DNA from: Porphyra umbilicalis
Lineage: Eukaryota > Rhodophyta > Bangiophyceae > Bangiales > Bangiaceae
Length of the DNA stretch: 64,000 bases
NCBI GenBank assembly: GCA_002049455.2
Contig: KV918803.1
Location: 124,001 to 188,000, forward strand
Reading direction: 5' to 3'
Shown: piece after piece, positions 2,931-54,085 of the stretch
Layout of the letters: each line of letters opens with the position of its first letter
Position numbering within the stretch: position 1 is the stretch's first letter
Notes under the pieces: model-generated
The model's input: only the letters and a program-made list of their open reading frames with translations
What the model was told of the DNA's origin: nothing
Database searches by the model: none
Position numbers and translations under genes: made by a program

Positions 2931-2933
2931 CAG

Positions 2934-3515
2934 CAGGCCCTGTCATAAGTATCGTTTTCAGCTTCGGGTACGGTATATACAACTCCTTGAATTCGAGTAC
3001 GAGTGCTGGCCACGTCTATCTTCACGTGTATCAATACGAAAAATACCTTGAGAACACGGGTAGGAATCAATTCCGAAATTGATTGACTTGGAACAGCTGC
3101 CGACCTTTAGCAGCGCCAAGCGCCTATTTTTCCGGAGCATGTCGGATCCGTTCCGTCACGTGAGTCATCCTGTTTGCGGCGTTTTCAACAGCTCGCGTGA
3201 GAATTCTAACGGGCGCCCTTTGGCGAGCACACCACGGTTTGGAGAATCCACCCCAACTAGAACCGTTGTAATATTCAAATCAAGTCCAAAGATCAACTGG
3301 TACTTAGCGGGGGTGAAACGACATAATTGTATTCGAATGGCGCGCTCTTCTGGCTTTACTTCCGCTGTCGGTCGGAATTGATAGATACCCACGGCTACCT
3401 ACTCAATTGTTCATTTGGGTGTGGGTGCCAGCCGCCTTGCTGCCTACGGGTACGGGAGTTCAGAGACTTACACCTGTTAATACACCTACTCACAATATAT
3501 GTATGGTAGGGCCTG
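2934..3515. mobile_element. hAT-type MITE inserted in element A
   Basis: A 582-bp AT-richer block inside the GC-rich retroelement. It is flanked by a perfect 8-bp direct repeat ATGCACAG (2,926-2,933 and 3,516-3,523). Its ends are inverted: CAGGCCCTGTCATA at the left and, read from the other strand, CAGGCCCTACCATA at the right, 12 of 14 matching. An 8-bp duplication with CAGG-type ends is diagnostic of the hAT superfamily. No transposase is encoded, so it is non-autonomous. Part of its interior (about 3,160-3,390) resembles 27,360-27,610 elsewhere in the window. Confidence 0.88.
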
Positions 3516-6352: not shown

Positions 6353-6852
6353 TGTAGCGATTCTAAGCACCACCAAGTTGGTTCGTCGTCTGGCCGAAGT
6401 GACCTCTTGATCAGCTCGGTCCGTCGAAGGAACTGCCCCAGAAATCGACCGACAGCCCAGCCTTCCTCCAACGGGAGGAGAGGATCACGGCCAAGCCCAG
6501 GGGGGAATCGTAGTCCAAAGCACAGTTGGTTTTATCAAACAGCGACGAGGACGGCGTCCCCACTCTCAATAAACCCCTCCCAAACCCGAACGCCGGTGGC
6601 CAAAGTAGCCACCCCAAGTACGCCAAACAGATAAATCCCTCCAAACAGAAAAGTTCAAACAAGTAGTAGGGGGGTTGGGAAAACCACTGGGGAAAAAAGC
6701 CCCGCCCCGGACCGAATCCAATCTCCCCAAGATCTGGACAGGTCATTCCCTTGCTGGCCCGGAACGGGATATTTTGGGACGGCCCCCCGGGGGTGTTTTG
6801 TCCACAGCTGAGGGGCCACGCCCCTTCCAACTGGGGACCCCCGACCGCCACA
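6353..6852 (-). repeat. 3' LTR of element B
   Basis: About 500 bp, begins TGTAGCG and ends CGCCACA on the + strand, the TG...CA ends of an LTR. The same sequence occurs at 13,935-14,430, 22,944-23,439 and 24,692-25,166. On the + strand it carries AATAAA near 6,569. Its left edge abuts the integrase of element A and its right edge abuts the region leading to the antisense ORF. Confidence 0.85.
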
Positions 6853-7394
6853 CAGCCCCCTCGTCGCGTGACGTGGCGTCCCTGCCCGTCCCGCGACGAC
6901 CCCTGAGGAGGGGGTTCCGGCCCGGCCCCCTGGCCGGGTGCCGGCCACAACCGCCACCCCCCCCCCCGATCCTCGCCCCAGGGGGGTTGTCGAGGTCGGT
7001 CCGCGGACGGGATCGGCCCCACGCGACACCGGCGTGGCGTGGCGCGCGGCCCGCACCGGTGTCTCGCGGCCCCCACACCCCCCGAGACGCACGTTGGCCC
7101 CATCCCTCCCCGTAGGCCCACACGCACACCCCGGTCTCACCCCCCCCCTCACAGGCGACTCCACGACTGCTCCACGCCACGCCACGACGTAGCTCTCCGC
7201 GCTCGCTGCGACGCGGTGTTCGCCGACTCGTTCCTCCGCCCACCCCACGACGTGCCGTCCACCCCCCCCCATGGCGCCCGCCGCTTCTTGCTTCTGTCGG
7301 CCCCCGGGGGTCCCCCCCCCCCCTCCCCCTTGTCGGACCGAGGACCCGGCGGCCGCCCGTCGACGGGACGCCCGCGCCCGCGTCGTCCTCGGCG

Positions 7395-8826
7395 ATGGCC
7401 GACGAGGAGATGCGCTACCAGACCGTCGTGGGCCCCCTGCCCGTCTTGTCCAATCCGGCGACATGGGCGCCCGCGTGGGCCCGTGAGGAGGCCCGCAAGG
7501 GGGCGACGGGATCGCTGGCCCACGCGACGCTTCGGGGCATCGACTCGACGCGCCCCTCCAACCCGTTGGCCAAGCACATCGCGGCGATGCCGCACGCCCT
7601 CGTGCCTTCCCTTGACGACCGCGCCTCGTCGATCACCGTGGTGCGGCGTAGCCGCGAGGTGGGGTACCGCCGCTCGTACGTGGGCTTCATGGACGACCCC
7701 TCGGTGAGCCCGCCGTTGGTACCGACATTCGAATACATTCTCACGTGCCCGCCCTTCATCGACGTGTCGGACGCGGAGGGCCCCACGACGGTCCAGCTGA
7801 CCATGGCTCGCAACGTGGGCTGTCTTCCGTAGTGAATGGGCTCTCGCGGCGGCCGTTGTTCTCCTCGAGACGTTTCGCACCCGTCGGGTCTTGTGGCGTT
7901 ACCCCCGCGTCTGCTCGATTGGATCTGCTCCGTAGGGGCGTCCAGCACCTGCGTCAAATCCACGGGTCCCGAAACGGAGGCGGCCGCCACCCTCGGGGCG
8001 TTGTTGGACCTCCCGGACCAGCTTCCCGACACGGAGGCCTTCCGCCAGCGCCTCCGCGCGCGTAGCACCGACCGTCGGGACCGCGAGGGTTGGATTTGGG
8101 CGTCCCTCGAGGTGGACGACGACGGAACCCACGCCAAGGTCGCCGAGGACCTTCGCCCCTTGGAGTTGCCGTACACCGCGGACATCCTCGAGGCGCGCGG
8201 CTACGGCCCTGCTCGTGGGGGTTGCGCCGCCGCCGCCTCGGTCGCCCGCAGCCCACGCTACCCCGAAGGTGGGACCGCGCCGCCCGCTACCTCTGTGGGG
8301 ATCGGCGCCGCGGGGTTGTCCCCTCCGGGTCCGTCGCCGCCGGCCGCATCCGCCGCCCCTTCTGGGGGTCACTCCGGGGGTAGCCTCATCGTCTCGTTCG
8401 ACCCCGTGGAGCACCGTGACATCCCCGACGTGGCCTTCGACCAACTCGACCACATTCCCTCGGACCGTGTCCCGCAGGGTTTAGCGCGCGTCGTGGCTAG
8501 TGACCCCGGGGAACTCCGCGGCTACACCACGGGGACCCTGGTAACCGGCTTGAGCCACACCGTGGTCTCTCTTGGCGACTAGATCGCCCAGTGGGCCCGC
8601 GACCACCCCGGGGTTCCGCCACGTCACTTGGAAGAGTTGCTTCAGTTGGTCGGTCGGCGCAGCATCCGCGCGGTTCTCCTTCGCGAGGTCGGCGTGGCCG
8701 CCGGTGGGGCCAACAGCCGTCAGCAACATCACCGCGACCGCGACGCCTACCACGAGGAGCCGGCGGCGCAGCGCCCCCGCGGTCCGCCCGGTACCGAGTG
8801 GGGCGGGCCTTCGTCGGCCCGCCGTT
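7395..8826 (+). pseudogene. antisense accessory ORF of element B, broken copy
   Basis: Homologous over its length to the intact ORF on the - strand of element C (20,763-22,397). It starts with the same MADEEMRYQTVVGPLP and shares blocks such as REVGYRRSYVGFMDD, GWIWASLEVDDDGTHAKV and LIVSFDPVEHRDIPDVAFDQ. It runs opposite to gag-pol of its element. It is broken, with a few breaks. An AATAAA lies at 8,958-8,963, about 130 bp after its end. Between that point and the end of pol (about 9,290) I see no other coding sequence. No known protein family was recognised. Confidence 0.7.
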
Positions 8827-8957
8827 GACCCGGCATTGGGGGGGGTAGTGATGTCGGAAGGGGTGGGAGAACAGCGCCCTCGGGAGTCGTAGTCGTAGCG
8901 CGTAGTAGTGTAGGGGGTCTCGTAGTGTCGACGGTGCCGTACGGCGCGTCAACGACC

Positions 8958-8963
8958 AATAAA
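8958..8963 (+). promoter_or_regulatory. poly(A) signal for the antisense ORF of element B
   Basis: AATAAA in the sequence CGACCAATAAACCCCACG, downstream of the antisense ORF on its own strand. The same sequence stands at the equivalent place in element C (20,650-20,655, - strand). Confidence 0.55.
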
Positions 8964-9289
8964 CCCCACGTGGGTCGTTTGCGTATCACCCTTGGGAGAA
9001 TTCCTTGTTCATCAGGCCGAATCCCGGGCCCCCTTTGTTGTCCATCATTTGACAGGCCCCCGCCGGTCAGCCGTCACGTACCACCACCGCCCCTGCATAC
9101 CGTCCATGCCATCCGATCGCCTTGGCTTTCCTCCCCCCGGGTCACTGGAGAAGACGGCCAGCCCGTCTCGCAGTCGGAACGGTCGCCACCACGGCCACGT
9201 GGCTCCGACCGGGACACGTGTCGATCCCAAAAATCTGCCACGATTCGAAACTTGAAACCCACGTGTCCCACGTGGGAATTGCCTTGAGC

Positions 9290-12110
9290 GAGGAAGTCGA
9301 CGACCGACCCGGCTTCTTCGACTCGTAGGCCCACACGCCGCATATACTGGTGCACCTTATGTCGGTCGAATCGACTGGCCAACTCGAGTATGTCCTCCTC
9401 GGGGTGGTACCCCCACCAGCATGTCCACAGGCGTAGCGTATCATCGTTAGCGAGTTCGTGGCCCACGAAGGCCTTCCAGACGAACACCTTGCCCGTGTGT
9501 TGATGCCTCTCGGGGACCACAATGTCTTGGGGTACCCCGAGGTTCTGCAGGAGCGTCTGTGGATCCCCCGGCGGGCCCGGCGCCGCCGTCACGTGGTCAC
9601 TGCTTACCGTCTCAGGGTACCCACCGATGTCCAGCGAAAACGTGCCCTCTCCGCGGGATAACACCTTGTACGGCCAGGCCGCGCGGGTCCTGAGCTTATA
9701 CTTGGTCCGCGCGTGGCCATCGACGAACACCCAGTCCCCCGCGTGGACGTCCTTGTTGACCGGTCGTACGCGGGCGTCGTAGTTCCTCTTGTACCGCCGC
9801 TGGGCCTGCGTGAGGGACTTCCGCACCTTGTGGATTAGGTTCCGTAGCCGCGCTCGGATGCCCTCGCGGACGGCTCGTGGGCTGCCGTCCGTCTCCTCGG
9901 GTGCCGGGGAGCCGACGAGGCGCTCCACGGAGAGGCTCCGCACACGCTCGGGGGTGACAAACTCGAGGGGCGCCACCCCGGTGCTCTGCTGCGGTCGGCT
10001 ATTGTAGGCCAACGTCAGCATCGACACCAACTCGTCCCATCGGTCTTGGTGGTCCTCGACGTACGTCTGCAACTGGCCCACGATGGTCCGGTTGTACCGT
10101 TCCACTTGGTCGTTCGTCTGCGGGTGGTACGTCGTGGAGTACCGGTTGGAGATCCCGAGGAGCGAGCCAACCCCTTGGAAGAACGTGGAGCGGAACTGGG
10201 GGCCATTGTCCGACAACATCGTCGCCGGGGGTCCGTACGCCGCCACCCAGTTGTCCAAAAATGCTGCCGCGATGGTTTCCGCGTCGATGCGCCGAAGGGG
10301 GATGGCCCGCGTCATCTTGGAGAAACGATCCACGATGAACAACAGATGTTCGTTCCCCGCCGCCGTCCGGGGGAGGGGGCCGAGCAGGTCCATGCACAGA
10401 TCCGTCAGCGGTTCCGTAGGGGAAAAGGTCTTGAGGTAGTTGGTCTTGCGTCCCTTGCCGACGCGGTTCCTCGCGCACTGCGTGCAGTTGGCCACGAAGG
10501 CGTAGACGTCCACCACCATCGATTCCCAATAAAACCACCGTCGCATCGACGTGTACATCTTGTTCGCCCCCGGGTGCCCGGCCTGCGGAGGGTAGTGCTC
10601 CCTCATCATCACCTCGTAGCGCATGTGAGTCGGCACGCAGACTTGCGTGGCCCCGTCCAACGGCGCCGTCCGCACCAACAGGCCATTCGGGTCCTCGTGC
10701 AGCCGCGACTTGTCGGTGCCGTCCATCGCCGCGCGGACCTCCTTGCACCGTACGTCCTCCGCCTGCCCCTCGAGGAGCTCGGCGAGCGTCAGGGGGCCTA
10801 GGAGTCCCCCCTTGGTCTCCGGTGGCAATTGCCACGCGGCGGACGAGTCGGGCAAAGCCAGACATGGTACCGCGTCGGTTATCGCCCCTTCGTCTCCCGC
10901 GGGTGTTGAGATGCGAGACATCGCGTCCGCCGCGTGTTGTGACGCCCCGGGCCGCGTCTGTACCACGTAATCGAACTCCGCCTATCGCAACCGCCACCAC
11001 GCCAGCCCCCCGTGGGCCCCGTCCATGTGCAGCATCCACTTGAGCGCCGCGTGGTCCGTGCGTACCGGGAAGCGAGTTCCTTCGACGTAGGGGCGGAGAA
11101 GGAGGGACGCCCACACAACCGCGAGGCACTTCCGCTCCGTCGCGCTGTAATTACGCTCCGTCGCGTTGAGGGAGCGGCTCCAATGGCCCACGGGCCGCGT
11201 GGATAGGTCGGGTTGTTCTTGTCGGAAGACCGCGCCGACCTGCCCCGCACTTGCGTCCGTGTCCAACGTGTAGGTCCCTTTTCGCCGCGGTAGGGCGAGG
11301 ATGGGGGCCTTCGGGAGGCGCCTCTTGAGTTCCTCTAATGCCCTCAGGGCCTCGTCGGACAGCTTCCCACACCGGGCGGGCCTCTTGGAACTCGTCATGG
11401 CGGCCAACGGCCGCGCCACTTGGGCGTAGTCCTTGACGAACCTCCGATACACGTTACACATCCCGAGGAAGCTACGTAGGTCCTGCTTGCACCGCGGGGG
11501 AGATGCCTCCTTGAGTCCGCGGATGTTCTTGTCTTGTACCTTCAGCTCCCCCCGGCCCACGATATGGCCCAAATACTCCACCTCCTCTCTTGGAACAAGT
11601 GGTACTTCTTGGCCTTCAGGGAGACCCCCGCGCCGCGCAGCGTCGTAAAGACATCCCGGAGATGTTCCACGTGTTCCCCCGCCGACTGCGAGAAGACGAT
11701 GATGTCGTCGAGGTACACGAGGCAGCTCTTCCACTTGAGTCCCCCGAGGATCATGTCGATGGCCCGTTGGAAGGTCGCCGGGGCATTGGACAGACCGAAG
11801 GGAAGGCGGATATAGCGGTAGGCCCCCTCGTGGCAAACGAAGGTTGTCTTGTCCCGGTCCTCGTCCGCCACGGGGATCTGCCAATACCCCGAGTTGCAGT
11901 CGAGCGTCGAGGACACCTTGGCGTCCCCGAGGAAGTCAATACAATCGTCCATTCGTGGCAACGGGTACACATCCCGCACCGTGACCTCGTTAAGTCGGCG
12001 GTAATCCACACAGAACCGCACTGTCCCGTCGGGTTTCGGAACCAGAACCACAGGGAAGGCCCACTCGGCGCTTGAGGGCTCGATAACCCCGAGGTCCCGC
12101 TGGCGTTACA
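9290..12110 (-). pseudogene. pol region of element B (RT, RNase H, integrase, chromodomain-like tail)
   Basis: Read on the - strand: RT block VLVPKPDGTVRFCVDYRR and MDDCIDFLGDAKVSSTLDCN (about 12,050-11,870), FGLSNAPATFQ and the YLDD box near 11,720; RNase H (about 11,320-10,930) with LDTDAS, AVVWASLLLRPY and RTDHAALKWML; integrase (about 10,660-9,900) with an HHCC-type zinc segment, then MDLLGPL, SDNGPQF and QVERYN as the DD35E positions; and a C-terminal WKAFVGHELANDD ... WGYHPEEDILEL stretch like a chromodomain. Chromodomains on integrase define chromoviruses. Fossil with several breaks. Confidence 0.85.
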
Positions 12111-12149
12111 CCTGCTTGGCGATGATGCCCCTCGAAGCGTAGCTTGCCC

Positions 12150-13200
12150 GATAGGGTTGGGCTCGCCGTGGCCGTGCCCCAGGGGTCGGCTCCATCCGGT
12201 GCGGGGTGACGTCAACCTTGCCGAGTTGCCCTGCCCATAGCGCCTTGTATTTTTCGAGGAGGTCGTCCACGACACCGCGGAGCGTACCGGGGACACCCTC
12301 TCAGTGGACCTCCGGCTTGGGGCACGTCTTGTCCGGCGGGTGGGGCGGAGGTTGTCCCTCGTCGATCCCCTCTTCAGCTTGCCGCCCCGTCTTGACCTCT
12401 TCGTCGGGCTTGTCACGGGCCGCCCCCATTGTTAGGACCGCCTGCGGTTCCTCCTCCTCCTAGACGACGTGTAGCGGTCCATTGTAGGCCGTCGCGGTTC
12501 TGATGACGTATCCCTTCGCCTGGTGTACCGGCGCGGTTCCGATGTTTGTCAGGTAGAGGGACCGCGGGGTGTTGGGGGAGAACTCCGCGACGGCGTTGTG
12601 CAACAGTACCTTCCGTCGGCTCATTTTGACGGGGCGTTCCCGTACCAGGTGGACCCCCTTGACGTTGCAGCACAGTTGGACCGCCTGGATGCACCGCCGG
12701 CCCACGGTCACCCCTTGCCGAGGCCGGATAGCCCCAAATTGGGCCTTCGGCTTGTTTCCTCGGCGTGGGGGAGCGGGCCGCGTGTTTCCCGTCCAGCTCC
12801 GCATCGCCACCGTGGACGTGACGTCGTCCCACTTGATCGTTTGCGTCTTGGGGGAGATGGTGTCCACGTAGTTGCGCTGGAAGTCCCACCCGAGGATGAG
12901 CGGTACCGACAGTGCCTAGACCACGAGGAACTCATACTCCATTGCGGCACCACCGTCGTAGATCGTCAGCGACACCTCCGCGTTCACCTTGAGCAGCTGC
13001 CCCGAGGCGTCACTCACTTGCGTCCGGGGCGGCGCCCGCGATGCATACTCGGTCCACCCTTCGGGCAACATATCCGCGCGGATCACACTTGGCCCGGCCC
13101 CAGTGTCGACCACCGCCCTCGTGGGGACGGGGGTCTGCCACGGTGCTAGCTGGTACGACGCGCTAATCTGAAAATGCTCTTTCCGTAGTAGCAAAAGCGT
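12150..13200 (-). pseudogene. protease and spacer region of element B
   Basis: Aspartic protease of the retropepsin type on the - strand, with the VVDTGAGPSVI active-site loop near 13,120-13,090 and a conserved following segment ILGWDFQRN near 12,890. Then comes a linker (LPKTQTIKWDD-like, charged, ending near the RT). It aligns closely with the same region of element C (16,400-17,380). Fossil. Confidence 0.75.
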
Positions 13201-13369
13201 CCCCTTGAACCGCGGGCGATATCGCCCACGACGGCAGGGGCAGCGGGCCGGGACAGGCCACGTCGCGGTTACCCCAAGGGAGGCAAACGTGACGTGACGG
13301 GGGGCGACCGGGGAGTTGGGGCGGACAGCGGGGATGGAGGGGGATGGCGATGTCAGCCCCCCTAGGCGT

Positions 13370-13929
13370 TCCCCGCCCCGCGGCGCCCCTTGGCCGGGGT
13401 TGCCACGGGCGGGGCGTCCCGCACTCCCGTCCTTGTTGACTCCGCGCCGCCCAACCGGTCGTCCCATACCAGGGCCACGACGGAGATGCAATTAGCGACG
13501 ACGACCGCCCCCGCGTTCCTCTGTCGAAGGAAGGTGCTCCGCGCGGCTTTCACGAGGTCCCGGTGTTTGTCCGTCAGAATCTTGCAATAACGGACCCAGT
13601 GTCCGCGCGTCCAACACATATAGCACAGGGGGGGACCCGTCGGGGCATCCCGCCGAGCGTAGGACGCTCCTACGGCCGTGCGGAACCCCGGGGTACCCGA
13701 CGGCAGCACCGCGACCGTGTCGTACGTCACCGTACAATCCTCCTCCCACGGGGAGTGGAGTTGGTTGACCGAGAGGCCTCGGGGCCCCGTCGACGTCTGT
13801 CCCTTCCGCCATGATCCCCCGGATGACCCCCGGCTGGCCAACGCCATGACGTCCTTGGCGGCCCGATACTTCCCCGCCACGTACGTCGATAACTGCTGGT
13901 AGCTTCGTTGCGCCGAGTTGTACACGAAG
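13370..13929 (-). pseudogene. C-terminal gag part of element B, on the left of the nested element
   Basis: Carries the CCHC zinc knuckle CYMCWTRGHWVRYC (CX2CX4HX4C, near 13,600) and the SYQQLSTYVAGKYRAAKD block, both present in element C's gag. It is interrupted at 13,930 by element C; the rest of gag lies at 23,445-24,548. The target duplication GCATC at 13,930-13,934 and 23,440-23,444 falls in this coding sequence. Fossil. Confidence 0.8.
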
Positions 13930-13934
13930 GCATC

Positions 13935-14430
13935 TGTGGCGGTCGGGGGTCCCCAGTTGGAAGGGGCGTGGCCCCTCAGCTGTGGACAGCACACCCCCGG
14001 GGGCCGCCCCGAAATATCCCGATCCGGGCCAGCAAGGGAATGACCTGTCCAGATCTCGGGGAGATTGGATTCGGTCGGGGGCGGGGCTTTTCCCAAGTGG
14101 TTTTCCCAGCCCCCCTACTACTTGTTTGAACTTTTCGCTTTGGAGGGATTTATCTGTTTGGCGCATTTGGGGTGGCTACTTTGGCCACCGGCGTTCGGTT
14201 TGGGAGGGGTTTATTGACAGCGGGGACGCCGTTCCCGTCGCCGTTTGATAAAACCAACTGTGCTTTGGACTACGATTCCCCCCTGGGCTTTGCCGTGATC
14301 CTCTCCTCCCGTTGGGGGAAGGCTGGGCTGTGGGTCGATTTCCGGGGCAGTATCTTCGACGGACCGAGCTGATCAAGAGGTCACTTTGGCCAGACGACGA
14401 ACCAACGTGGTGGTGCTTAGAAGCGCTACA
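13935..14430 (+). repeat. 5' LTR of element C
   Basis: 496 bp, begins TGTGGCGGTC and ends AAGCGCTACA, giving imperfect inverted ends with TG and CA. Nearly identical to 22,944-23,439. The left flank GCATC is the target duplication. Confidence 0.92.
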
Positions 14431-14435
14431 ATTTC

Positions 14436-14452
14436 TGGTGGAGCAGCAGGGG
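14436..14452 (+). other. primer-binding site of element C
   Basis: TGGTGGAGCAGCAGGGG begins five bases after the 5' LTR. TGG pairs with the CCA tail of a tRNA, as expected for a minus-strand primer site. The identical sequence follows the 5' LTR of element B (24,670-24,686, - strand). The tRNA species was not identified. Confidence 0.65.
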
Positions 14453-14573
14453 ATTCCGGCCGTTGCCACGCCCGTACTGGGTAGCCGGTTCCCCGATCGT
14501 CTGTTGGTTTGTGAGTTCAAGGCGACGTGGATCTCCGCGTCGGTCTGTCGTCGATTACCGTCCGGCCACTACG

Positions 14574-16250
14574 ATGGCGTCGCCGTCCGACATCCCCAAG
14601 TCGAACGCGATCGCTAGCGGTATGCCGGCGGGTACATCCGCGGTGACCCCAGCGGTCGCTGCAACAAGGGGATCCGCGGCCGGATCAGGGATTCCCTTCA
14701 CTCCGCCTCGGCCATTGGCGGACCTCGTGGGCGAAACGGTACGGCGGGTCCCGCCGGGGGCCGGTGCCTTGCTCCCTCGACGTCAAGACGAACGGACGGG
14801 ATTGGTGGATCAAGATCGTGATCCGGCGACGCCTTTAGCGATGGCCGATCTGGACACGGCGCTGTCGACGTTCCGCGAGTCGTTATTGGCCGACGTTTCT
14901 CGGGTCATCGCGGCGAGCCCCGCGGGCTCTGCTCAAGATGCCCCCCGTCGAGATTCTCCAGTGGACACGCGGAAGAGCCGCAGCAAAGGGAAGTCACGGC
15001 GTCATCGTAGTCCCTCGTCGTCATCATCGTCTTCATCTTCCTCGACGTCGCCGGCGACAACCGACAACGACGACGACCACGTGGGGCGCAAGGTGGGGTC
15101 CGGCAAGTTGGCGGTCCTCGAGTGCCCGGACGATCGCTTCGCGGGCGTCCTGGACTACCGATCGTACCGCCTACGGAACCGTCACTCGACCTACGGGGCG
15201 TCGCAGGCCCGCAAGATGGGACGGACGGCCAAGAATATGAAGTTCTCCTTCGGGGGGACCCCGATGTTCAACGGGAAGGAACCCCTCAAGGTCTTCTCGT
15301 GGCTCCGAAAGTTCGTCAAGGCCTGCGATGACAACGACGTGTCCGAGGGGATGGGTTTGTACCTAATTCCCAACTTCCTCGCGGGCGACGCTGAGACGCG
15401 GTTCACTCGGAACCTACCGGGGTAGGATATCGCGGGCGGACGGGGCTCGCTTGGATGCTTTCCCGCGGCGGTCAATTGGTTGTTGTCGACCTACGCGGAG
15501 CCGCACGCTTTCGGGCTGGCGCAGGACAAGTTTAGCCGAGCGGCGCTCGTGGACAACGAGGGGGTGGACGCCTTCGCGGCACGTCTACGGAGCCTCGCTG
15601 AGCTTTGCGGCAACATCCACTCCGAGGGGACGATGAAACAGCAGCTGATCCAAGGGTTACCGGAGTATCTACGGACGGACGCCTTCGTGTACAACTCGGC
15701 GCAACGAAGCTACCAACAGTTGTCGACCTACGTGGCGGGGAAGTATCGGGCCGCCAAGGACGTCATGGCGTTGGCAGGCCGGGGGTCACCCGGGGGATCA
15801 TGGCGGAAGGGACAGACGTCGACGGGGCCCCGAGGCCTCTCGGTCAACCAACTCCACTCCTCGTGGGAGGAGGATGACACGGCGACGTACGACACGGTCG
15901 CGGTGCTGCCGACGGGTACCCCGGGGTTCCGCACGGCTGGGGGAGCGCCCTATGTTCGGCGGGAGGCCCCGACGGGTCCCCCGCTGTGCTACATGTGTTG
16001 GACGCGTGGCCACCGAGTCCCTGATTGCAAGATTCTGACGAACAAACACCGGGACCTCGTGAAAGCCGCGCGGAGCACCTTCCTTCGACAGCGGAACGCG
16101 GGGGCGGGCGCCCCCTCGGATCGCACCTCCGTCGTGGCCCTGGTATGGGACGACCTGTTGGGCGAGGCGGAGGCAACGAGGACGGAGGGGGGGGACGCCC
16201 CGCCCGTAGCAACCCCGGCCAAGGGGCGCCGCGGGGCGGGAAACGCCTAG
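14574..16250 (+). pseudogene. gag region of element C
   Basis: Starts MASPSDIPKSNAIASGMP at the first Met shared with element B's gag. It has an N-terminal Ser/Thr/Pro-rich part, a basic and serine-rich SKGKSRRHRSPSSSS segment, and a capsid-like core around FSWLRKFVKACDDND (near 15,295-15,340). It then continues with LSTYAEPHAFGLAQDKFSRA and QQLIQGLPEYLRTDAF, and ends with a CCHC zinc knuckle CYMCWTRGHRVPDC near 15,987-16,028 in a basic context. This is the Ty3/gypsy arrangement of capsid followed by nucleocapsid. Fossil, slightly broken. Confidence 0.8.
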
Positions 16251-16379
16251 GGGGGGTGGCATCGCCATCCCCCTCCATCCCCCCTGCCCGCCCCAACTCC
16301 CCGGTTGCCCCCCGCCACGTCACGTTTGCCTCCCCTGGGGTAACCGCGACGTGGCCTGTCCCGGCCCGCTGCCCCTGCC

Positions 16380-17380
16380 GTCGCGGGCGATACCGCCCGC
16401 GGTTCAAGGGGACGCTGTTGCTACTACGGAAGGAGAATTTTGAGATTAGCGCATCGTACCAGTTTGCGCCGTGGCAGACCCCCGTCCCCACGAGGGCGGT
16501 GGTCGACACTGGCGCTGGGTCAAGTGTGATCCGCGCGGATATGTTGCCCGAAGGGTGGACCGAGTATGCATCGCGGGCGCCGCCCCGGACGCAAGTGAGT
16601 GACGCCTCGGGGCAGCTGCTCAAGGTGAACGCGGAGGTGTCGCTGACGATCTACGTCGGGGGTGCCGCTATGGAGTATGAGTTCCTCGTGGTCAAGGCAT
16701 TGTCGGTACCGCTCATCCTCGGGTGGGACTTCCAGCGCAACTACGTGGACACCATCTCCCCCAAGACGCAGACGATCAAGTGGGACGACGGCACGTCCAC
16801 GGTGGCGACGCGGAGCTGGACGGAGAACACGCGGCCCGCGCCCCCTCGCCGAGGAAACAAGCCGAAAGCCCAAGCTGGGGCTATCCGGCTTCGGCAAGGG
16901 GTAACCGTCGGCCCGCGGTGCATCCAGGCGGTCCAAGTGTGCTGCAACGTCAAGGGGGTCCACCTGGTACGGGAACGCCCCGTCAAAATGAGCCCACGTA
17001 AGGTACTGTTGCACAACGCGGTCGCGGAGTTCTCCCCCAACACCCCGCGGGCCCTCTACCTGACAAACATCGGGGACGTGCCGGTGCACCTAACGAAGGG
17101 GTACGTCATCGGAACCGCGACGGCCTACCATGGACCGCTGCACGTCGTCGAGGAAGAGGAGGAACCGGGGGCGGTCCTAACGATGGGGGCGGTCCCCCGT
17201 GACAAGCCCGACGAGGAGTTCAAGACGGATCGGCAAGCCGAAGAGAGGATCGACGAGGGACAACCTCCACCTCACCCGCCGGACAAGACGTATCCCAAGC
17301 CGGAGGTCCACTGGGAGGGCGTCCCCGACCCGCTTCGTGGTGACGTGGACGACCTCCTCGAGGAGTACAAGGCGCTGTAG
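16380..17380 (+). pseudogene. protease and linker region of element C
   Basis: Retropepsin-like aspartic protease with the VVDTGAGSSVI loop at about 16,498-16,530 and the downstream LILGWDFQRNY segment near 16,712-16,744. Its frame overlaps the end of gag by about 225 bp in a different phase, which fits the frameshift used between gag and pol in many Ty3/gypsy elements. After the protease there is a charged linker rich in Pro, Glu and Asp leading to RT. Confidence 0.75.
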
Positions 17381-17429
17381 GCGGGGCAACTCGGCAAGGT
17401 CGACGTCACCCCGCACCGGATCGAGGTGA

Positions 17430-20329
17430 CCCCCGGGGCACGGCCACGGCGGGCCCAACCCTATCGGGCAAGCCACGCTTCGAGGGACATCATTGCCAAG
17501 GAGGTGCAACGCCAGCGGGACCTCGGGGTTATCGAGCCCTCAAGCGCCGAGTGGGCCTTCCCTGTGGTTCTGGTTCCGAAACCCGACGGGACAGTGCGGT
17601 TCTGTGTGGATTACCGCCGACTTAACGAGGTCACGGTGCGGGATGTGTACCCGTTGCCACGAATGGACGATTGTATTGACTTCCTCGGGGACGCCAAGGT
17701 GTTCTCGACGCTCGACTGCAACTCGGGGTATTGGCAGATCCCCGTGGCGGACGAGGACCGGGATAACACGACCTTCGTTCGCCACGAGGGGGCCTACCGC
17801 TACATCCGCCTTCCCCTCGGGCTGTCCAATGCCCCGGCGACCTTCCAACGGGCCATCGACATGATCCTCGGGGGACTCAAGTGAAAGAGCTGCCTCGTGT
17901 ACCTCGACGACATCATCGTCTTCTCGCAGACGGCGGGGGAACACGTGGAACATCTCCGGGATGTCTTTACGACGCTGCGCGGCGCGGGTGTCTCCCTGAA
18001 GGCCAAGAAGTGCCACTTGTTCCAAGAGGAGGTGGAGTATTTGGGCCATATCGTGGGCCGGGGGGAGCTGAAGGTACAAGACAAGAACATCCGCGGACTC
18101 AAGGAGGCATCTCCCCCGCGGTGCAAGCAGGACCTACGTAGCTTCCTCGGGATGTGCAACGTGTATCGGAGGTTTGTCAAGGACTACGCCCAAGTGGCGC
18201 GGCCGTTGGCCGCCATGACAAGTTCCAAGAGGCCCGACCGGTGGGGGACGCTGTCCGACGAGGCCCTGGGGGCATTCGAGGAACTCAAGAGGCGACTCAC
18301 GGAGGCCCCCATCCTCGCCCTGCCGAGGCGACAAGGGACCTACACGTTGGACACGGACGCAAGTGCGGGGCAGGCCGGCGCGGTGCTTTTACAAAAACGA
18401 CCCGACCAATCCACGCGGCCCGTTGGCTATTGGAGCCGCTCCCTCAACGCGGCGGAGCGAAACTACAGTACGACGGAGCGGGAGTGCCTCGCGGTTGTGT
18501 GGGCGTCCCTCCTTCTCCGCCCCTACGGCGGGGGGACCCGCTTCACGGTGCGCACGGACCACGCGGCGCTCAAGTGGATGCTGCACATGGACGGGGCCCA
18601 CGGGTGGCTGGCGCGGTGGCGATTGCGACTGGCGGAGTTCGACTACGTGGTACAGACACGCCCCGGGGCGTCACACCACGCGGCGGACACGATGTCACGC
18701 ATCTCAACACCCGCGGGAGACGAGGGGGCGATACCCGACGCGGTACCTTGTCTGGCGTTGCCCAACTCGTCGGCCGCGTGGCAGTTACCGCCGGAGACCA
18801 AAAGGGGACTCCTAGGCCCCCTGACGCTCGCCGAGCTCCTCGAGGGGCAGGCGGAGGACGGACGGTGCAAGGAGGTCCGCGCGGCGATGGACAGCAACGA
18901 CAAGTCGCGGTTCCGCGAGGACTCGAACGGCCTGTTGGTGCGCACGGCGCCGTTGGACGGGGCCACGCAAGTCTACGTGCCGACCCACATGCGCTACGGG
19001 GTGATGATGCGGGAGCACTACCCCCCGCATGCCGGACATCCGGGGGCCAACAAGATGTACACGTCGATGCGACGATGGTTTTATTGGGAGTGTATGGTGG
19101 TGGACGTCTACGCCTTCGTGGCGAACTGCGTGCAGTGCGCGCGGGACCGCGTCGGCAAGCGACGGAAGACGAACTACCTCAAGACATTCCCCCCGACGGA
19201 GCCGCTGACGGACCTGTGTATGGATCTGCTCGGTCCCCTCCCCCGAACCGAGGCGGGGAACGAACACCTGCTGGTCATCGTGGATCGCTTCTCCAAGATG
19301 AAGCGGGCCATCCCCCTTCAGCGGATCGACGCGGAATCCATCGCGGCGGCCTTTTTGGACTACTGGGTGGCGGCCTATGGACCCCCGGCGACGGTGTTGT
19401 CCGACAATGGCCCCCAGTTCCGTTCCACGTACTTCCAAGGGGTTTGCTCGCTCCTCGGGATCTCCAACCGGTACTCCACGACGTACCACCCGCAGACGAA
19501 CGACCAAGTGGAACGGTACAACCGGACCATCGTGGGCCAGTTGCAGACGTACGTCGAGGACCACCAAGACCGATGGGACGAGTTGGTGTCGATGCTGACG
19601 TTGGCCTACAATAGCCGACCGCAGCAGAGCACCGGGGTGGCGCCCCTCGAGTTTGTCACCCCCGAGCGTGTGCGGAGCCTCTCCGTGGAACGCCTCGTCG
19701 GCTCCCCGGCACCCGAGGAGACGGACGGCAGCCCACGAGCCGTCCGCGAGGGCATCCGAGCGCGGCTACGGAACCTAATCCACAAGGTGCGGAAGTCCCT
19801 CACGCAGGCCCAGCGGCGGTACAAGAGGAACTACGACGCCCGCGTACGACCGGTCAACAAGGACGTCCACGCGGGGGACTGGGTGTTCGTCGATGGCCAC
19901 GCGCGGACCAAGTATAAGCTCAGGACCCGCGCGGCCGGGCCGTACAATGTGTTGTCCCGCGGGGAAGGCACGTTCTCGCTGGATATCGGCGGGTACCCTG
20001 AGACGGTAAGCAGCGACCACGTGACGGCGGCGCCGGGTCCACCGGGGGATCCGCAGACGCTCCTGCAGAACCTCGGGGTGCCCCAAGACATCGTGGTCCC
20101 CGAGGGGCATCAACATACGGGCAAGGAGTTCGTCTGGGAGGCCTTCGTGGGCCACGAAGTCGCGGACGACGGCACGCTACGCCTGTGGACCCGCTGGTGG
20201 GGGCTCCACCCCGAGGAGGACACCCTCGAGTTGGCCAGTCGGTTCGACAAACGTAAGGTGCACCAGTATATGCGGCGGGTGGGCCTACGAGTCGAAGAAG
20301 CCGGGTCGGTCGTCGACTTCCTCGCCTAA
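17430..20329 (+). pseudogene. RT, RNase H, integrase and chromodomain-like region of element C
   Basis: RT (about 17,540-18,110) has VLVPKPDGTVRFCVDYRR, GLSNAPATFQRA and the YLDD active site near 17,899-17,910. RNase H (about 18,330-18,700) has LDTDASAGQAGAVL, ECLAVVWASLLLRPY and RTDHAALKWML. Integrase (about 18,980-19,720) has the H-H-C-C zinc module ending VANCVQCARDR, then MDLLGPLPR, LSDNGPQF and NDQVERYN as D, D and E. The C-terminus (about 20,120-20,285) reads FVWEAFVGHEVADDGTLRLW ... WWGLHPEEDTLELAS, a chromodomain-like module that in chromoviruses directs insertion to particular chromatin. Fossil, few breaks. Confidence 0.88.
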
Positions 20330-20649
20330 GGCAATTCCCACGTGGGACACGTGGTTTTCAAGTTTCGAATCGTGGCATTTTTTTTGTGTTCGACACGTGT
20401 CCCGGTTGGAACCACGTGGCCGGGGTGGCGACCGTCCCGACTGCGAGCCGGGTTGGCCGTCTTCTCCGTGACACAGGGGGAGGTGAGGGTCAAGGCGATC
20501 AGGTGGCGTGGTCGGTACCAGGGGGCGGGTTGGTACGTGATGGCTGACCGACGGGGGCCGATCCAATGATGGACCACGACGGGGTCTAAGATTCGGCCTG
20601 ACGAACAAGGGGCTCTCCCAAGGGTGATACGCAAACGACCCGCGTGGGG

Positions 20650-20655
20650 TTTATT
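20650..20655 (-). promoter_or_regulatory. poly(A) signal for the antisense ORF of element C
   Basis: AATAAA on the - strand, about 110 bp beyond the stop of the antisense ORF, in the same CCAATAAACCCCACG context as in element B. It lies between the two convergent reading frames, about 320 bp after the end of pol. Confidence 0.6.
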
Positions 20656-20762
20656 GGTCGGTGACGAGCCGTACGGCCCCGTCTACGCCACAACACCCCC
20701 CCTACACTACTACGCGCTACGACTACAACTCCCGAGGGGGATCGTTACCCCACCCCCCCGGG

Positions 20763-22397
20763 TCAGCGGCGGGCCGACGAGGGCCCACCCCACTCCGGAC
20801 CGGGCGGACCACGCGGGCGCTGCGTCGCGGGGTCCTCGTGGTAGGCGTCGCGGTCGCGGTGATGCTGTTGACGGCGGTTGGCCCCGCCGGCGGCCACGCC
20901 GACCTCGCGAATGAGGGCCGCGCGGATGCTACGACGACCGACAAGCTGAAGCAACTCCTCCAAGTGACGGGGCGGAACCCCGGGGTGGTCACGGGCCCAC
21001 TGGGCGATCGAGTCGCCAAGGGAGACCACGGTGTGGCTCAAGCCGGCTACAAGCGTCCCCGTGGTGTAGCCGCGGAGTTCCCCGGGGTCACAAGCCACGA
21101 CGCGCGCCAAACCCTGCGGGACACGGTCCGAGGAGATGTGGTCGAGTTGGTCAAAAGCCACGTCGGGGATGTCACGGTGTTCCACGGGGTCGAACGAGAC
21201 GATGAGGCTACCCCCGGAGTTACCCCCAGAGGGGGCGGCGGAGGCGGCGGGCGGCGACGGGCCCGGAGGGGACAACACCACGGCACCAGTCACCACGGAG
21301 GTAGCGGGCGGCGTGGTCCCACCCCCGGGGTAACGCGGGCTGCGGGCAGCCGAGACGGCGGCGGCCCAACCCCCACGAGCAGGGCCGTAGCCACGCGCCT
21401 CGAGGATGTCCGCGGTGTACGGCAGGTCGAAGGGGCGAAGGTCCTCGGCGACCTTGGCGTGAGTGCCGTCGTCGTCCACCTCGAGGGACGCCCAAATCCA
21501 ACCCTCGCGGTCACGGCGGTCGGTGCTACGCGCACGAAGGCGCTGGCGGAAGGCCTCCGTGTCGGGAAGCTGGTCCGCGAGGTCCAGCAAAGCCCCGAGG
21601 GTAGCAGCCGCCTCGGCGTCGGGACCCGCGGGGTTGATGCAGATTTTGGACGCCCCGAGGGAGCGGATCCAATCGAGGAGACGCGGGGGGTAACGCCACA
21701 AGACTTGGCGGGTGCGGAACGTCTCGAGGAGAACGACGGCCGCCGCGAGGGCCCACTCGCTACGGAAGTCGGCCCACGAGGCGCGGCGGCCCGCGTAGAG
21801 GTCGTCCGTGGCATACGCGTGCACCCACGGGAGTTCCACCATGCAGCCGTACGGGACTTCCACCCCGGACCACCACGCGGGAGTCGGCAGGTAGAAGCGC
21901 GAGCGGGTCGCCGTGGCGCAGCTCGAGTACTCCGCCTGGTGCCACGCCACGAGGTTCCCGGTGAGGCCGCCCCGGTGATTGCGAGCCGTCGTCAGCTGCA
22001 CCGTCGTGGGGCCCTCCGAGTCCGACACGCCGATGAAGGGCGGACACGTGAGGATGTATTCGAAGGTCGGCAGCAACGGCGGGTCCACCGGGGGGTCGTC
22101 CATGAAGCCCACGTAGGAGCGGCGGTACCCCACCTCGCGGCTACGCCGCACCACGGTGATCGACGAGGCGCGGTCGTCCAAGGAAGGCACGAGGGCGTGC
22201 GGCATCGCCGCGATGTGCTTGGCGAATGGGTTGGAGGGGCGCGCCGAGTCGATGCCGCGGAACGTCGCGTGGGCTAGCGACCCCGCCACCCCCATGCGGG
22301 CCTCCTCACGGGCCCACGCGGGCGCCCATGTCGCCGGATTGGACAAGACGGGCAGGGGGCCCACGACGGTCTGGTAGCGCATCTCCTCGTCGGCCAT
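20763..22397 (-). CDS. antisense accessory ORF of element C, unknown function
   Basis: An uninterrupted frame of 544 aa from MADEEMRYQTVVGPLP; an in-frame extension reaches an earlier Met at 22,505, but the ATG at 22,397 is the one shared with element B. It runs opposite to gag-pol, between integrase and the 3' LTR. The N-terminal 350 residues look folded, with many aromatic residues (WWSGVEVPYG, WADFRSEWALAAAVVL, GWIWASLEVDDDG). A Pro/Ser/Gly-rich linker follows (SPPGPSPPAASAAPSGGNSG), then a second conserved part (LIVSFDPVEHRDIPDVAFDQ) and a basic His/Arg/Asp tail. No transmembrane segment or signal peptide is evident, so it does not look like an envelope. I recognise no family. Some plant Ty3/gypsy elements (Grande, Retand types) carry antisense ORFs at this position; the role is unknown there too. 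Confidence 0.75.
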   Translation of the reverse strand: MADEEMRYQTVVGPLPVLSNPATWAPAWAREEARMGVAGSLAHATFRGIDSARPSNPFAKHIAAMPHALVPSLDDRASSITVVRRSREVGYRRSYVGFMDDPPVDPPLLPTFEYILTCPPFIGVSDSEGPTTVQLTTARNHRGGLTGNLVAWHQAEYSSCATATRSRFYLPTPAWWSGVEVPYGCMVELPWVHAYATDDLYAGRRASWADFRSEWALAAAVVLLETFRTRQVLWRYPPRLLDWIRSLGASKICINPAGPDAEAAATLGALLDLADQLPDTEAFRQRLRARSTDRRDREGWIWASLEVDDDGTHAKVAEDLRPFDLPYTADILEARGYGPARGGWAAAVSAARSPRYPGGGTTPPATSVVTGAVVLSPPGPSPPAASAAPSGGNSGGSLIVSFDPVEHRDIPDVAFDQLDHISSDRVPQGLARVVACDPGELRGYTTGTLVAGLSHTVVSLGDSIAQWARDHPGVPPRHLEELLQLVGRRSIRAALIREVGVAAGGANRRQQHHRDRDAYHEDPATQRPRGPPGPEWGGPSSARR

Positions 22398-22930
22398 CGC
22401 CGAGGACGACGCGGGCGCGGGCGTCCCGTCGACGGGCGGCCGCCGGGTCCTCGGTCCGACAAGGGGGAGGGGGGGGGGGGACCCCCGGGGGGCCGACAGA
22501 AGCAAGAAGCGGCGGGCACCACGGGGGAGGGGTGGACGGCACGTCGTGGGGTGGGCGGAGGAACGAGTCGGCGAACACCGCGTCGCAACGAGCGCGGAGG
22601 GTTACGTCGTGGGGTGGCGTGGCGGAGTCGTGGAGTCGCCTGTGTGGGGGGGGGTGAGCCCGGGGTGTGCGTGTGGGCCCACGGGGAGGGGTGTGGCCAG
22701 CGTGTGTCTCGGGGGGTGTGGGGGCCGCGAGACACCCGTGCGGGCCGCACGCCACGCCACGCCGGTGTCGCGTGGGGCCGATCCCGTCCGCGGACCGACC
22801 TCGACAACCCCCCTGGGGCGAGGATCGGGGGGGGGGGTGGCGGTTGTGGCCGGCACCCGGCCGGGGGGCCGGGCTGGAACCCCCCTCCTCAGGGGGTCGT
22901 CGCGGGACGGGCAGGGACGCCACGTCACGC

Positions 22931-22943
22931 GACGAGGGGGCTG
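22931..22943 (+). other. polypurine tract of element C
   Basis: GACGAGGGGGCTG directly precedes the 3' LTR. A purine run at this place primes plus-strand DNA synthesis in LTR elements. The same sequence, reversed, adjoins the 3' LTR of element B at 6,853. Between here and the antisense ORF (22,398-22,930) lies GC-rich non-coding sequence with G and C runs. Confidence 0.55.
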
Positions 22944-23439
22944 TGTGGCGGTCGGGGGTCCCCAGTTGGAAGGGGCGTGGCCCCTCAGCTGTGGACAGCA
23001 CACCCCCGGGGGCCGCCCCAAAATATCCCGATCCGGGCCAGCAAGGGAATGACCTGTCCAGATCTCGGGGAGATTGGATTCGGTCGGGGGCGGGGCTTTT
23101 CCCAAGTGGTTTTCCCAGCCCCCCTACTACTTGTTTGAACTTTTCGCTTTGGAGGGATTTATCTGTTTCGCGCATTTGGGGTGGCTACTTTGGCCACCGG
23201 CGTTCGGTTTGGGAGGGGTTTATTGACAGCGGGGACGCCGTCCCCGTCGCCGTTTGATAAAACCAACTGTGCTTTGGACTACGATTCCCCCCTGGGCTTT
23301 GCCGTGCTCCTCTCCTCCCGTTGGGGGAAGGCTGGGCTGTGGGTCGATTTCCGGGGCAGTTCCTTCGACGGACCGAGCTGATCAAGACGTCACTTCGGCT
23401 GGACGACGAACCAACGTGGTGGTGCTTAGAACCGCTACA
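22944..23439 (+). repeat. 3' LTR of element C
   Basis: 496 bp, TGTGGCGG to CCGCTACA, same length as the 5' LTR and about 2 percent different from it by eye. Followed by the target duplication GCATC (23,440-23,444). Confidence 0.92.
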
Positions 23440-23444
23440 GCATC

Positions 23445-24548
23445 CGTCCGTAGATTCTCCGGTAGGCCTTGGATCAGCTGCTGTTTCATCGTCCCCTCGG
23501 AGTGGATGTTGCCGCAAAGCTCAGCGAGGCTCCTTAGACGTGCCGCGAAGGCGTCCACCCCCTCGTTGTCCACGAGCGCCGCTCGGCTAAACTTGTCCTG
23601 CGCCAGCCCCAAAGCGTGCGGCTCCGCGTAGGTCGACAACAACCAATTGACCGCCGCGGGAAAGCATCCAAGCGAGCCCCGTCCGCCCGCGATATCCTAC
23701 CCCGGTAGGTTCCGAGTGAACCGCGTCTCAGCGTCGCCCGCGAGGAAGTTGGGAATTAGGTACAAACCCATCCCCTCGGACACTCCGTCGTCATCGCAGG
23801 ACTTGACGAACTTTCGGAGCCACAAGAAGACCTTGAGGGGTTCCTTCCCGTTGAACATCGGGGTCCTCCCGAAGGAGAACTTCATGTTCTTGGGCATCCG
23901 TCCAATCTTGCGGGCCTGCGACGCCCCGTAGGTCGAGTGACGGTTCCGTAGGCGGTACGATCGATAGTCCAGGACGCCCGCGAAGCGATCGTCCGGGCAC
24001 TCGAGGACCGCCAACTTGCCGGACCCCACCTTGCGCCCCACGTGGTCGTCGTCGTTGTCGGCTGTCGCCGGCGACGGAGAGGAAGATGCAGACGACGATG
24101 ACGACGAGGGACTACGGTGACGCCGTGACTTCCCTTTGCTGCGGCTCTTCCGCGTATCCACTGGAGAATCTCGGCGGGGGGCATCTTGAGCAGAGCCCGC
24201 GGGGCTTGCCGCGATGACCCGAGAAACTTCGGCCAATAACGACTCGCGGAACGTCGACAGCGCCGTGTCCAGATCGGCCATCGCCAGAGGCGTCGCCGGA
24301 TCACGATCTTGATCCACCAATCCCGTCCGTTCGTCGTGACGTCGAGGGAGAAAGGCATCGGCCCCCGGCGGGACCCGCCGTACCGTTTCGCCCACGAGGT
24401 CCGCCAATGGCCGAGGCGGAGTGAAGGGAATCCCTGATCCAGCCGTGGATCCCTCTGTTGCAGCGACCGCTGGGGTCACCGCGGATGTACCCGCCGGCAT
24501 ACCGCTAGCGATCGCATCCGACTTGGGGATGTCGGGCGGCGACGCCAT
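23445..24548 (-). pseudogene. N-terminal gag part of element B, on the right of the nested element
   Basis: Begins MASPPDIPKSDAIASGMP at 24,548 on the - strand and matches element C's gag closely, including the basic SKGKSRRHRSPSSSS segment and the LWLRKFVKSCDDD core. It is cut at the insertion site of element C. The remainder is at 13,370-13,929. Fossil. Confidence 0.8.
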
Positions 24549-24669
24549 CGTAGTGGCCGGGCGGTAATCGACGACAGACCAACTCGTAGTTCCACGTCGC
24601 CTTAAATCCACAAACCAACAGACGATCGGGGAACCGGCGACCCGGTACGGGCGTGGCAACGGCCGGAAT

Positions 24670-24686
24670 CCCCTGCTGCTCCACCA
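24670..24686 (-). other. primer-binding site of element B
   Basis: On the - strand TGGTGGAGCAGCAGGGG follows the 5' LTR after five bases, identical to the site in element C. Confidence 0.6.
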
Positions 24687-24691
24687 GAAAT

Positions 24692-25166
24692 TGTAGCGGT
24701 TCTAAGCACCACCACGTTGGTTCGTCGTCTGGCCCAAGTGACCTCTTGATCAGCTCGGTCCGTCGAAGATACTGCCCCGGAAATCGACCAACAGCCCAGC
24801 CTTCCCCCAACGGAAGAAGAGGATCACGGCAAAGCCCAGGGGGGAATCGTAGTCCAAAGACCAGTTGGTTTTTGTCAAACAGCGACGAGGACGGCGTCTC
24901 CACTCTCAATAAACCCCTCCCAAACCCGAACGCCGGTGGCCAAAGTAGCCACCCCAAGTGCGCCAAACAGATAAATCCCTCCAAAGCGAAATGTTCAAAC
25001 AAGTAGTAGGGGGGTTGGGAAAACAAGTACTACAATCTCCCCGAGATCTGGACAGGTCATTCCCTTGCTGGCCCGGATCGGGATATTCTGGGACGGCCCC
25101 CTGGGGGTGTGCTGTCCACAGCTGAGGGGCCACGCCCCTTCCAACTGGGGACCCCCGACCGCTACA
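24692..25166 (-). repeat. 5' LTR of element B
   Basis: About 475 bp, TGTAGCGGT to ACCGCTACA on the + strand, which gives perfect 9-bp inverted ends. Same family as the other three LTRs and visibly more diverged from its partner at 6,353-6,852 than the two LTRs of element C are from each other. Confidence 0.88.
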
Positions 25167-28950: not shown

Positions 28951-29373
28951 TACTATAGCTTTGATGTGTGTTCTCTTGCGTTGTGCGCCATGTGTCGCGA
29001 CACAGTGCTGTGTTTCATGGCCGGGCGCGTTCTGCACGTGAGTCATGCACGGGCTAAGTCTGTCTGAGCAACGCCCTATGAGATGGAAAGCGCTTCAGTT
29101 GCGCATTGCAGGTGCAAAACACCTTGCCTGTCACACGCGATGCGAGAGCGCAGGCCGCCAGCATCCGTATGAGCCCCGTGTCGTGACTCCGGCATGGACA
29201 CTTCGATTGGTACATAGAACATGCCATGCGGCTTTGAAAAAAGATCCAGTCATTGACAAACGAACACACACAAACATGCACACACACCCACAGGCACTTA
29301 CGAGCCCTCATTACTCGCCAGCGCGTGACCGCCATGCCCGTCGGCGAGCCCACGCAAGTGCAGTGAGATCCTT

Positions 29374-30780
29374 TCACAAGTTCATACCGACGGCCGGGTC
29401 CGTCGCCTGCACCCGAGTAAGGAGGTCGGAGAAGAAACCGGGAGGGGAAAGCATGCCCTGGTTGACTTGGAGCGCGGGGTCAGCTGGGATACCGTCAGCG
29501 GCCCGGCCAAAGCGTCTGCGTGATGGCCCAGACGGACGACCTCGGCCACCAATGTCGCCGGCGCCACCATCCCCAGCACCCCTGTGGCCGTCGCCACCAT
29601 CCCCGCCGCCGCCGCCGGCACCACCACCATCGCTGCCGCCACCGCCGCCGGCGCCACCCTCCCCAGCATCATCACCGCCGTCGCCACCATCCCCGTCGCC
29701 AGCGCCGCCAGCGCCACCATCGCCGCCGCCTCTGGCGACGGCGCCGGCATCCCCATCCCCACCATCATCAGCATCCATATCCGGATCCCCACCAGCGCCG
29801 GCGCCGCCATCCCTATCCCCCCCGCCGCGGGCGCGATCAATTCTGGCTCCACCATCGCCGCCACCGCCAACGGCTGCGGGCGCACCCCCGCCACCCCCGC
29901 CACCGCCGCCACCGCCGCCACCGCCGCCACCCCCGCCGCCGCCGCCGCCTCCATCACCGCCGCCGCCACCATTCCCGCCGCCGCCACCGCCGCCGCCGCC
30001 ATTATCCCCACCATCTTCACCGCCGCCGACGTCACTGCCGTCGCCGCCATTGGCGGCACCGGCGCCCGCGCCCTCACCGTCTCCCGCAACGCCGCCACCG
30101 GGACCACCAATGTCAACATCTGCGCCATGCCGCTGAATGTTGTGGACGAATGACGGCCGCCGCGCCTCCACGACCATGTTGTGCATGATGCACACGGCCT
30201 TGGCCGTGAGGATGTGGTGAGCCACTCTGTGGTGGCGCGCGGGGTGGAGAGCCACCTTGAATTGATGGTACATGGTGCCGTACAGGCGCTCGACCTCCTT
30301 GCGAGCGCCTTCTTGTACGGCGTTAAGCTCAAGCTCTTTCGGGGTGCCGGGGTTCTGATGGGGGCGAACTAGAAAGAGGTAAGAGGGATAGATATCGTCG
30401 ACTAAATAGTACAGATACGTGTACCACCGTCCGTTCACTTCAAAAGAAAAGTGACGTGGCGGCCACTAGCCGCGCACAACACGAGAAAATAAAGGGCTCT
30501 GATTGAGGACGTTGATGTCGTTGTTGCTTCCTGGCGAGCCGGCAAAGACGTGCCAAACCCAGAGGTCGTGGTCGCACACCATCTCCAGGTCAATCGACCG
30601 CTTGCCCGACCTGCCCTTGTGATGTCCCGTCGCCGACTTCGGGCAGCCGTGCCACTCCCAGTGGCTGCAGTCCAAGCTGCCTATACAGCCGGGCAAGCCC
30701 CGGTGCTTGTTGAACGCCAGGCTGCGCGTGATGTCATCGTCCGTCGGCGCAGAAGCGCAGAGGCACGGCACTCCATGTCA
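29374..30780 (-). pseudogene. PIF/Harbinger transposase, truncated copy in H1
   Basis: DDE-type transposase of the plant-transposon (DDE_Tnp_4/Plant_tran-like) family. It retains GCIGSLDCSHWEWHGCPKS with the first catalytic Asp, HVFAGSPGSNNDINVL with the second, and ARKEVERLYGTMYHQFK with the catalytic Glu, followed by a Gly-rich tail. Compared with H2 the first 190 or so residues are missing, the frame being joined to 5' leader sequence. A TAG stands where H2 has Glu in VVRGEWPP, near 30,466. It is therefore inactive by itself. The Gly-rich tail is about 150 residues and made of GGC/GGT-type codons. Confidence 0.85.

Positions 30781-54045: not shown

Positions 54046-54085
<40 letters not shown>

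Follow-up and report, generated by a model that had tools for sequence, protein, structure and literature searches.

Antisense open reading frames (ORFs) of LTR retrotransposons have been described mostly from flowering plants, as far as the accessible parts of two papers go (PMC7264820, PMC11963269). In Retand elements, classed as non-chromovirus, the interval from pol to the 3′ LTR holds an antisense ORF across the whole lineage, according to the available text of the Retand paper (PMC11963269). The product of Grande gene23, which is expressed from its own promoter, is nuclear as told in the available part of a review, which also reports an antisense ORF in Boty of Botrytis, a fungal LTR element (PMC7264820). 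An antisense ORF between pol and the 3′ LTR is therefore a known kind, since the review and the Retand paper describe this same placement in plants and in one fungal element; the earlier note on this DNA had named antisense ORFs of Grande and Retand types. The locus compared here with these systems lies in a stretch of 64,000 nt of Porphyra umbilicalis DNA (the window), in a retrotransposon designated element C. That the host is a red alga is borne out by its phycobilisome matches, 10 of 11 of which fall on a single contig of 185 kb, taken as the plastid genome. Allophycocyanin alpha has its best match in 5tjf_A, a Gracilaria structure, while the named homologues closest to the antisense protein come from Pyropia and the window's high GC content is reminiscent of Bangiales.

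Element C (Table 1) has the PR-RT-RNaseH-INT order, the LTRs and the target duplication of a Ty3/gypsy element. It has TG..CA ends, and its LTRs differ from one another by 11 mismatches in 496 nt. It is inserted into an older relative, element B, and is itself decayed, since its gag-pol frame is interrupted by the stops given in Table 1. L029, a relative of C found in the same genome, gave weak zinc-knuckle matches. We call the C lineage 'chromovirus-like', a putative assignment that rests on a below-threshold chromodomain match in this one relative (PF00385, Chromo; 20.1 bits, E = 6e-4, cut-off 25.1); no chromodomain was reported for C at E ≤ 0.01, and its last 60 pol residues gave three PDB matches (E ≤ 10), with no chromodomain structure among them.

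Table 1. Features of element C, of its antisense gene and of the surrounding element B (positions in the window)
Feature	Position	Strand	Remarks
Element C, Ty3/gypsy LTR retrotransposon, nested within element B	13935-23439	+	∼9.5 kb
5′ LTR of C	13935-14430	+	496 nt
3′ LTR of C	22944-23439	+	496 nt
Target duplication GCATC, left copy	13930-13934	.	5 bp; flanks C
Target duplication GCATC, right copy	23440-23444	.	5 bp; flanks C
Gag-like frame of C	14421-16250	+	CCHC-type knuckle recognised by eye; interrupted by stop 15423
Aspartyl protease and pol start of C	16025-17380	+	pol-frame stops 17378, 17882
RT end, RNase H, integrase and chromodomain-like C-terminus of C	17885-20329	+	
Antisense gene of C, 544 residues	20763-22397	-	ATG at 22397, stop codon 20763-20765
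Overlapping sense frame, 549 codons, judged non-coding	20628-22277	+	N/S 1.40 of null, shared variants
AATAAA beyond antisense stop	20655-20650	-	107 nt past stop; in C and B
Presumed promoter and leader region of antisense gene	22398-23439	-	basis: position
Element B, 3′ part, interrupted by C	6353-13934	-	
Element B, 5′ part	23440-25166	-	
B's copy of antisense gene, broken	7299-8825	+	opposite strand to B

Other repeats occupy the window as well. Element A, a Ty3/gypsy element at 548-6352 (+ strand; protease-like region 2083-3051, RT/RNase H 3993-5996), adjoins B's LTR at 6353, and its pol has ∼75% DNA identity to that of C over a short stretch. An 885-codon frame at 59438-62095 strongly matched Plant_tran / DDE transposases (PF04827, E = 5.7e-60; PF13359), and 28956-30750 is an inverted copy, ∼90% identical, of much of 60818-62450. 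An inverted repeat at 45170-46832 (555-nt arms, 97% complementary, 553-nt spacer) is a possible foldback element. Tandem arrays are found at 58358-59920 (∼85- and 111-nt units, in DNA of 75-81% GC) and at 55868-56563 (116-nt units). Two kilobases within 52909-55229 are 84-86% GC and contain long overlapping open frames in several frames; the one searched gave no Pfam match.

The earlier note had described in both B and C a long ORF running against gag-pol, followed by AATAAA, and had taken the long intact frame and the conserved signal together to suggest a separate transcript. The minus-strand frame of C, between integrase and the 3′ LTR, is indeed open for 612 codons (20763-22601), 544 of its residues following from an ATG with which the start of P0040, a homologue 40% identical, aligns. 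The gene is also present in B, where the frame is broken (it lacks 200 nt that C has and carries a TAG at codon 463). Frame length itself proves little, because the window contains 12 stop-to-stop frames of at least 544 codons, one of them the 549-codon sense frame that overlaps much of this ORF; coding is indicated by the substitution pattern, which is the evidence. The AATAAA was likewise borne out in C and B, and it is retained in 18 of 21 C-type rows, with 60 of 428 same-length stretches of the region better conserved. It is absent beyond the stop in two members of a divergent family (L029 and L030) and in all 17 truncated copies considered below, 16 of which have AGTAAA instead; the loss in these copies was probably one event. 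As a general mark of the antisense gene the signal was therefore rejected, failing as it does outside the C family.

A search of the genome (83.8 Mb, 665 contigs) with C's protein gave at least 78 matches, the best 75 of 310 candidates having been scored. Selection was analysed in 22 copies on C's frame (20 genome places in long form, plus B and C) and in 18 copies of pol; the neutral null relocated each change to a different site with an identical trinucleotide context. Differences by codon position numbered 6550/5144/13961 in the antisense ORF (22 rows) and 5542/4523/11353 in pol (18 rows). Among variants shared by at least two copies, N/S was 0.34 of the null in the antisense ORF (z of synonymous changes 9.7) and 0.30 in pol (z 9.8), these z values, like those that follow, not being independent-sample statistics because the copies share ancestry. 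Singletons, which are mostly post-insertion changes, were nearer neutral (antisense ORF 0.81, z 2.4; pol 0.89, z 1.6). The comparison of synonymous and non-synonymous change that the earlier note had called for thus shows the older change to be non-neutral. Other members also keep the frame, as that note's reading demanded: 10 of the 22 rows are stop-free despite being decaying insertions, and other element families also have open homologous frames. We conclude that the antisense ORF is genuine and encodes a protein, on which purifying selection is about as strong as on pol.

The twelve frames of this length in the window, and the low value of one sense frame, would suit the explanation that the ORF is a chance long frame in GC-rich DNA or mirrors a sense frame that does the coding. 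Read in its five remaining frames, the ORF region gave shared-variant values of 1.46, 2.47, 1.40 (for the sense ORF that overlaps it), 0.44 and 2.36. However, the frame at 0.44, a sense frame (-1/1), contains 309 stops in the 22 rows, while the open sense frame, at 1.40, contains 24 (the region counted extends beyond that ORF's end). Pol has the same mirror effect on its own opposite strand (0.41), and both mirror values fit third positions lying back to back. Chance or mirroring can be regarded as refuted. It is also highly improbable that the antisense transcript itself is what matters, as a source of small RNAs, the frame being a by-product. Antisense element transcripts can feed silencing, according to the available part of the review (PMC7264820), but selection here acts on amino acids, and the codon-position pattern disfavours such an explanation.

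The position of the gene was followed with C's pol, for which the genome search gave at least 57 rows, representing 55 places (best 55 of 1763 candidates scored). At 52 of these 55 listed places the gene was found on the opposite strand no more than 4 kb downstream, 23 times full or partial and 29 times truncated, the median pol-to-gene gap being 449 and 456 nt, respectively. No same-strand homologue was seen at any of the 55 listed places, and three were without any listed gene. In position, strand, presence in most copies and pol-like conservation, the gene corresponds to an antisense additional ORF between pol and the 3′ LTR (aORF-3R). When integrase cores were searched (best 150 of 1246 candidates scored), 72 of the 150 scored cores were followed within 4.5 kb, on the opposite strand, by one of the antisense genes listed. 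Core-to-gene gaps were 781-4230 nt for C-type genes (n = 23), 1288-1932 nt for truncated ones (n = 30), 1662-1677 nt for a distant type represented by L068 (n = 10) and 2003-2039 nt for a group 34-40% identical to L068 (n = 9). In one same-strand case, at 3.3 kb, the core has an opposite-strand partner of its own as well; three homologues among those listed lay upstream of an integrase core. The other 78 of the 150 scored cores had no antisense gene among the matches listed. Integrase cores in 1325-codon frames (for example G000:C246:80961, C154:111235 and C9:395198) represent a numerous Ty3/gypsy-like family with no antisense relative among the matches listed, possibly a lineage without the antisense gene.

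Homologous genes occur in several element families of this genome. The divergent family (L029 and L030) has the same layout, with an antisense protein 38-39% identical to C's and, in L029, a pol ∼61% identical; contig C70 carries a pol with 59% identity to L029's and, after it on the opposite strand, a gene with 37% identity to P0040. The distant family (L068 and C222) was linked to C's protein by hhalign with a probability of 98.7 (E = 1.7e-16; 28% identity over 358 columns). A genome search with the core of the L068 family gave at least 151 matches (best 150 of 306 candidates scored). They include groups with 43-48% and 34-40% identity to L068, and many lie in open frames of 500-900 codons; in the 43-48% group, none of 15 rows adjoined an integrase core among those listed. 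Beyond this genome, where the earlier note had proposed to look, 39 relatives were found by protein search and 138 by alignment search (best 120 of the 138 listed), mostly metagenome proteins. The sole named source organism among the relatives listed was Pyropia vietnamensis, whose hypothetical protein MMPV_010044 is 45% identical over 96%; MMPV_001850, MMPV_008457 and MMPV_009928, also hypothetical, are further homologues. It might be argued that the gene is captured host cargo, since Pfam gave no convincing match to any known domain family, those of mobile elements among them; its recurrence in one and the same position across many copies and several families makes this very unlikely.

The product shows no apparent membrane segment (highest 19-residue hydropathy mean 1.07), as the earlier note had stated, and that note had assigned it to no family. 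Pfam gave no convincing match for 14 members of the protein family; the only matches, to TraD in 4 members (best E = 0.015) and to TerB_N in 1 (E = 0.098), were taken as chance. PF04195 (TRP28), the domain of the Retand antisense protein, was not found in the 14 members at E ≤ 10, a search in which HMMER filters drop most matches above ∼0.1, or in the whole genome, where a control set was likewise without a match above the cut-off. A search of the PDB by sequence gave one match (E = 1.2), and an IMG/VR scan gave 34 pattern matches, none of them a relative. Pfam and fold searches together found no known fold or domain, the structure model being of low confidence. A structural or particle protein, either a capsid accessory or envelope-like, would suit the location, since env-like genes sit between integrase and the 3′ LTR according to the accessible portion of the review (PMC7264820). 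The opposite strand, the lack of a membrane segment and the absence of any viral fold match at E ≤ 0.001 with the low-confidence model speak against such a role, which we consider improbable; the gene was rejected as an envelope-like ORF, which would be on the sense strand and encode a transmembrane segment.

Many copies of the gene end after codon 216. All 17 that were examined have one deletion junction, and these 17 copies form a single clade in the antisense-gene tree (support 100/100). Over the remaining codons, N/S for shared variants was 0.90 (z 0.6) in the truncated copies versus 0.47 (z 4.3) in 21 full copies, and pairwise dN/dS was 0.64 versus 0.37; a TAG at codon 22 is common to 5 of the 17. 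Singletons of the truncated clade gave 0.73 (z 2.6); relaxation is therefore incomplete, with a residue of constraint or of shared history. The 400 codons near the end of pol gave 0.23 beside both the truncated and the full gene (14 and 18 usable rows out of 17 and 21, respectively). With the truncated gene largely unconstrained and the adjoining pol constrained, the antisense gene seems not to be needed in cis. In the pol tree the truncated copies form no clade (p-AU 2.5e-7; at least 8 changes). Since the truncated gene is a clade while the adjoining pols are not, the simplest reading is that 3′ segments recombine between full and truncated elements. On this reading, copies have multiplied while lacking the gene in cis; and because copies with a broken gene multiplied, the gene may be dispensable. 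The truncated clade provides a natural loss-of-function experiment, in which cis and trans roles are separable by comparing copies. Pol pairs with closely similar scores were also seen ∼8 kb apart on one strand (G000:C17:420098-430483 and G000:C136:182501-193030), as if two truncated elements stood in tandem, perhaps sharing an LTR.

The success of the truncated class bears on whether the protein helps or restrains its element. A lineage lacking the full gene rose to high copy number (the gene is truncated at 29 of the 52 listed paired pol places), as might be expected if the protein served copy-number control or self-limitation. A helper would more readily account for the strong purifying selection and the wide conservation, however, and we regard self-restraint as unlikely. 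The reading we favour, and think probable, is that the antisense frame is an accessory gene of a red-algal Ty3/gypsy (chromovirus-like) lineage, with its own transcript and a trans-acting product that is likely a nuclear or nucleic-acid-associated regulator. The minus-strand transcript, implied though not shown by the selection on the protein, would start in or near the 3′ LTR, run tail-to-tail with gag-pol and, in the C family, end after the AATAAA. Its predicted product would be soluble and comprise a middle part that is conserved, a linker rich in Pro and Ala, and a helical C-terminus; it would act in trans in the life cycle of the element, most likely in the nucleus or on nucleic acids, where it may regulate element expression, counter silencing or influence the choice of insertion site. 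The nuclear or nucleic-acid role is an analogy with Grande gene23 and Retand ORF4, antisense proteins for which such roles have been proposed (PMC7264820), because no fold or domain supports it directly. More tentatively, an ancient new superfamily of antisense accessory proteins could define a large red-algal retrotransposon lineage, the protein being a shared trans-acting good supplied by full elements and used by a multiplying gene-deleted class that exchanges 3′ segments through reverse-transcription recombination.

Among the known systems close to this one, Retand has an antisense ORF in the same interval between pol and the 3′ LTR. The pol-to-LTR region is 2.6 kb in C and 2.9-6.6 kb in Retand (available text of PMC11963269); Retand elements live in angiosperms, whereas the host here is a red alga, and the Retand antisense protein carries TRP28 (PF04195), which was not found here, the genome control set also being matchless. 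Grande gene23 and the RIRE2 antisense ORFs of maize and rice share with C an antisense accessory gene in a different host group, and Boty shares an antisense ORF in an LTR element outside plants, both comparisons being by description. The MMPV proteins of Pyropia vietnamensis are homologous to C's antisense protein and are known as hypothetical annotations, as proteins alone. A literature search of titles and abstract starts, with most subscription papers outside its reach, gave no report of antisense ORFs in red-algal elements or of this protein superfamily. What is probably new is the protein superfamily, found in a red alga and in chromovirus-like elements. What the red alga adds to the known kind is a protein family with no known domain but with the same layout, pol-like selection and homologues down to 28% identity; if this is true, the origin or the persistence of antisense accessory genes extends far outside the land plants.
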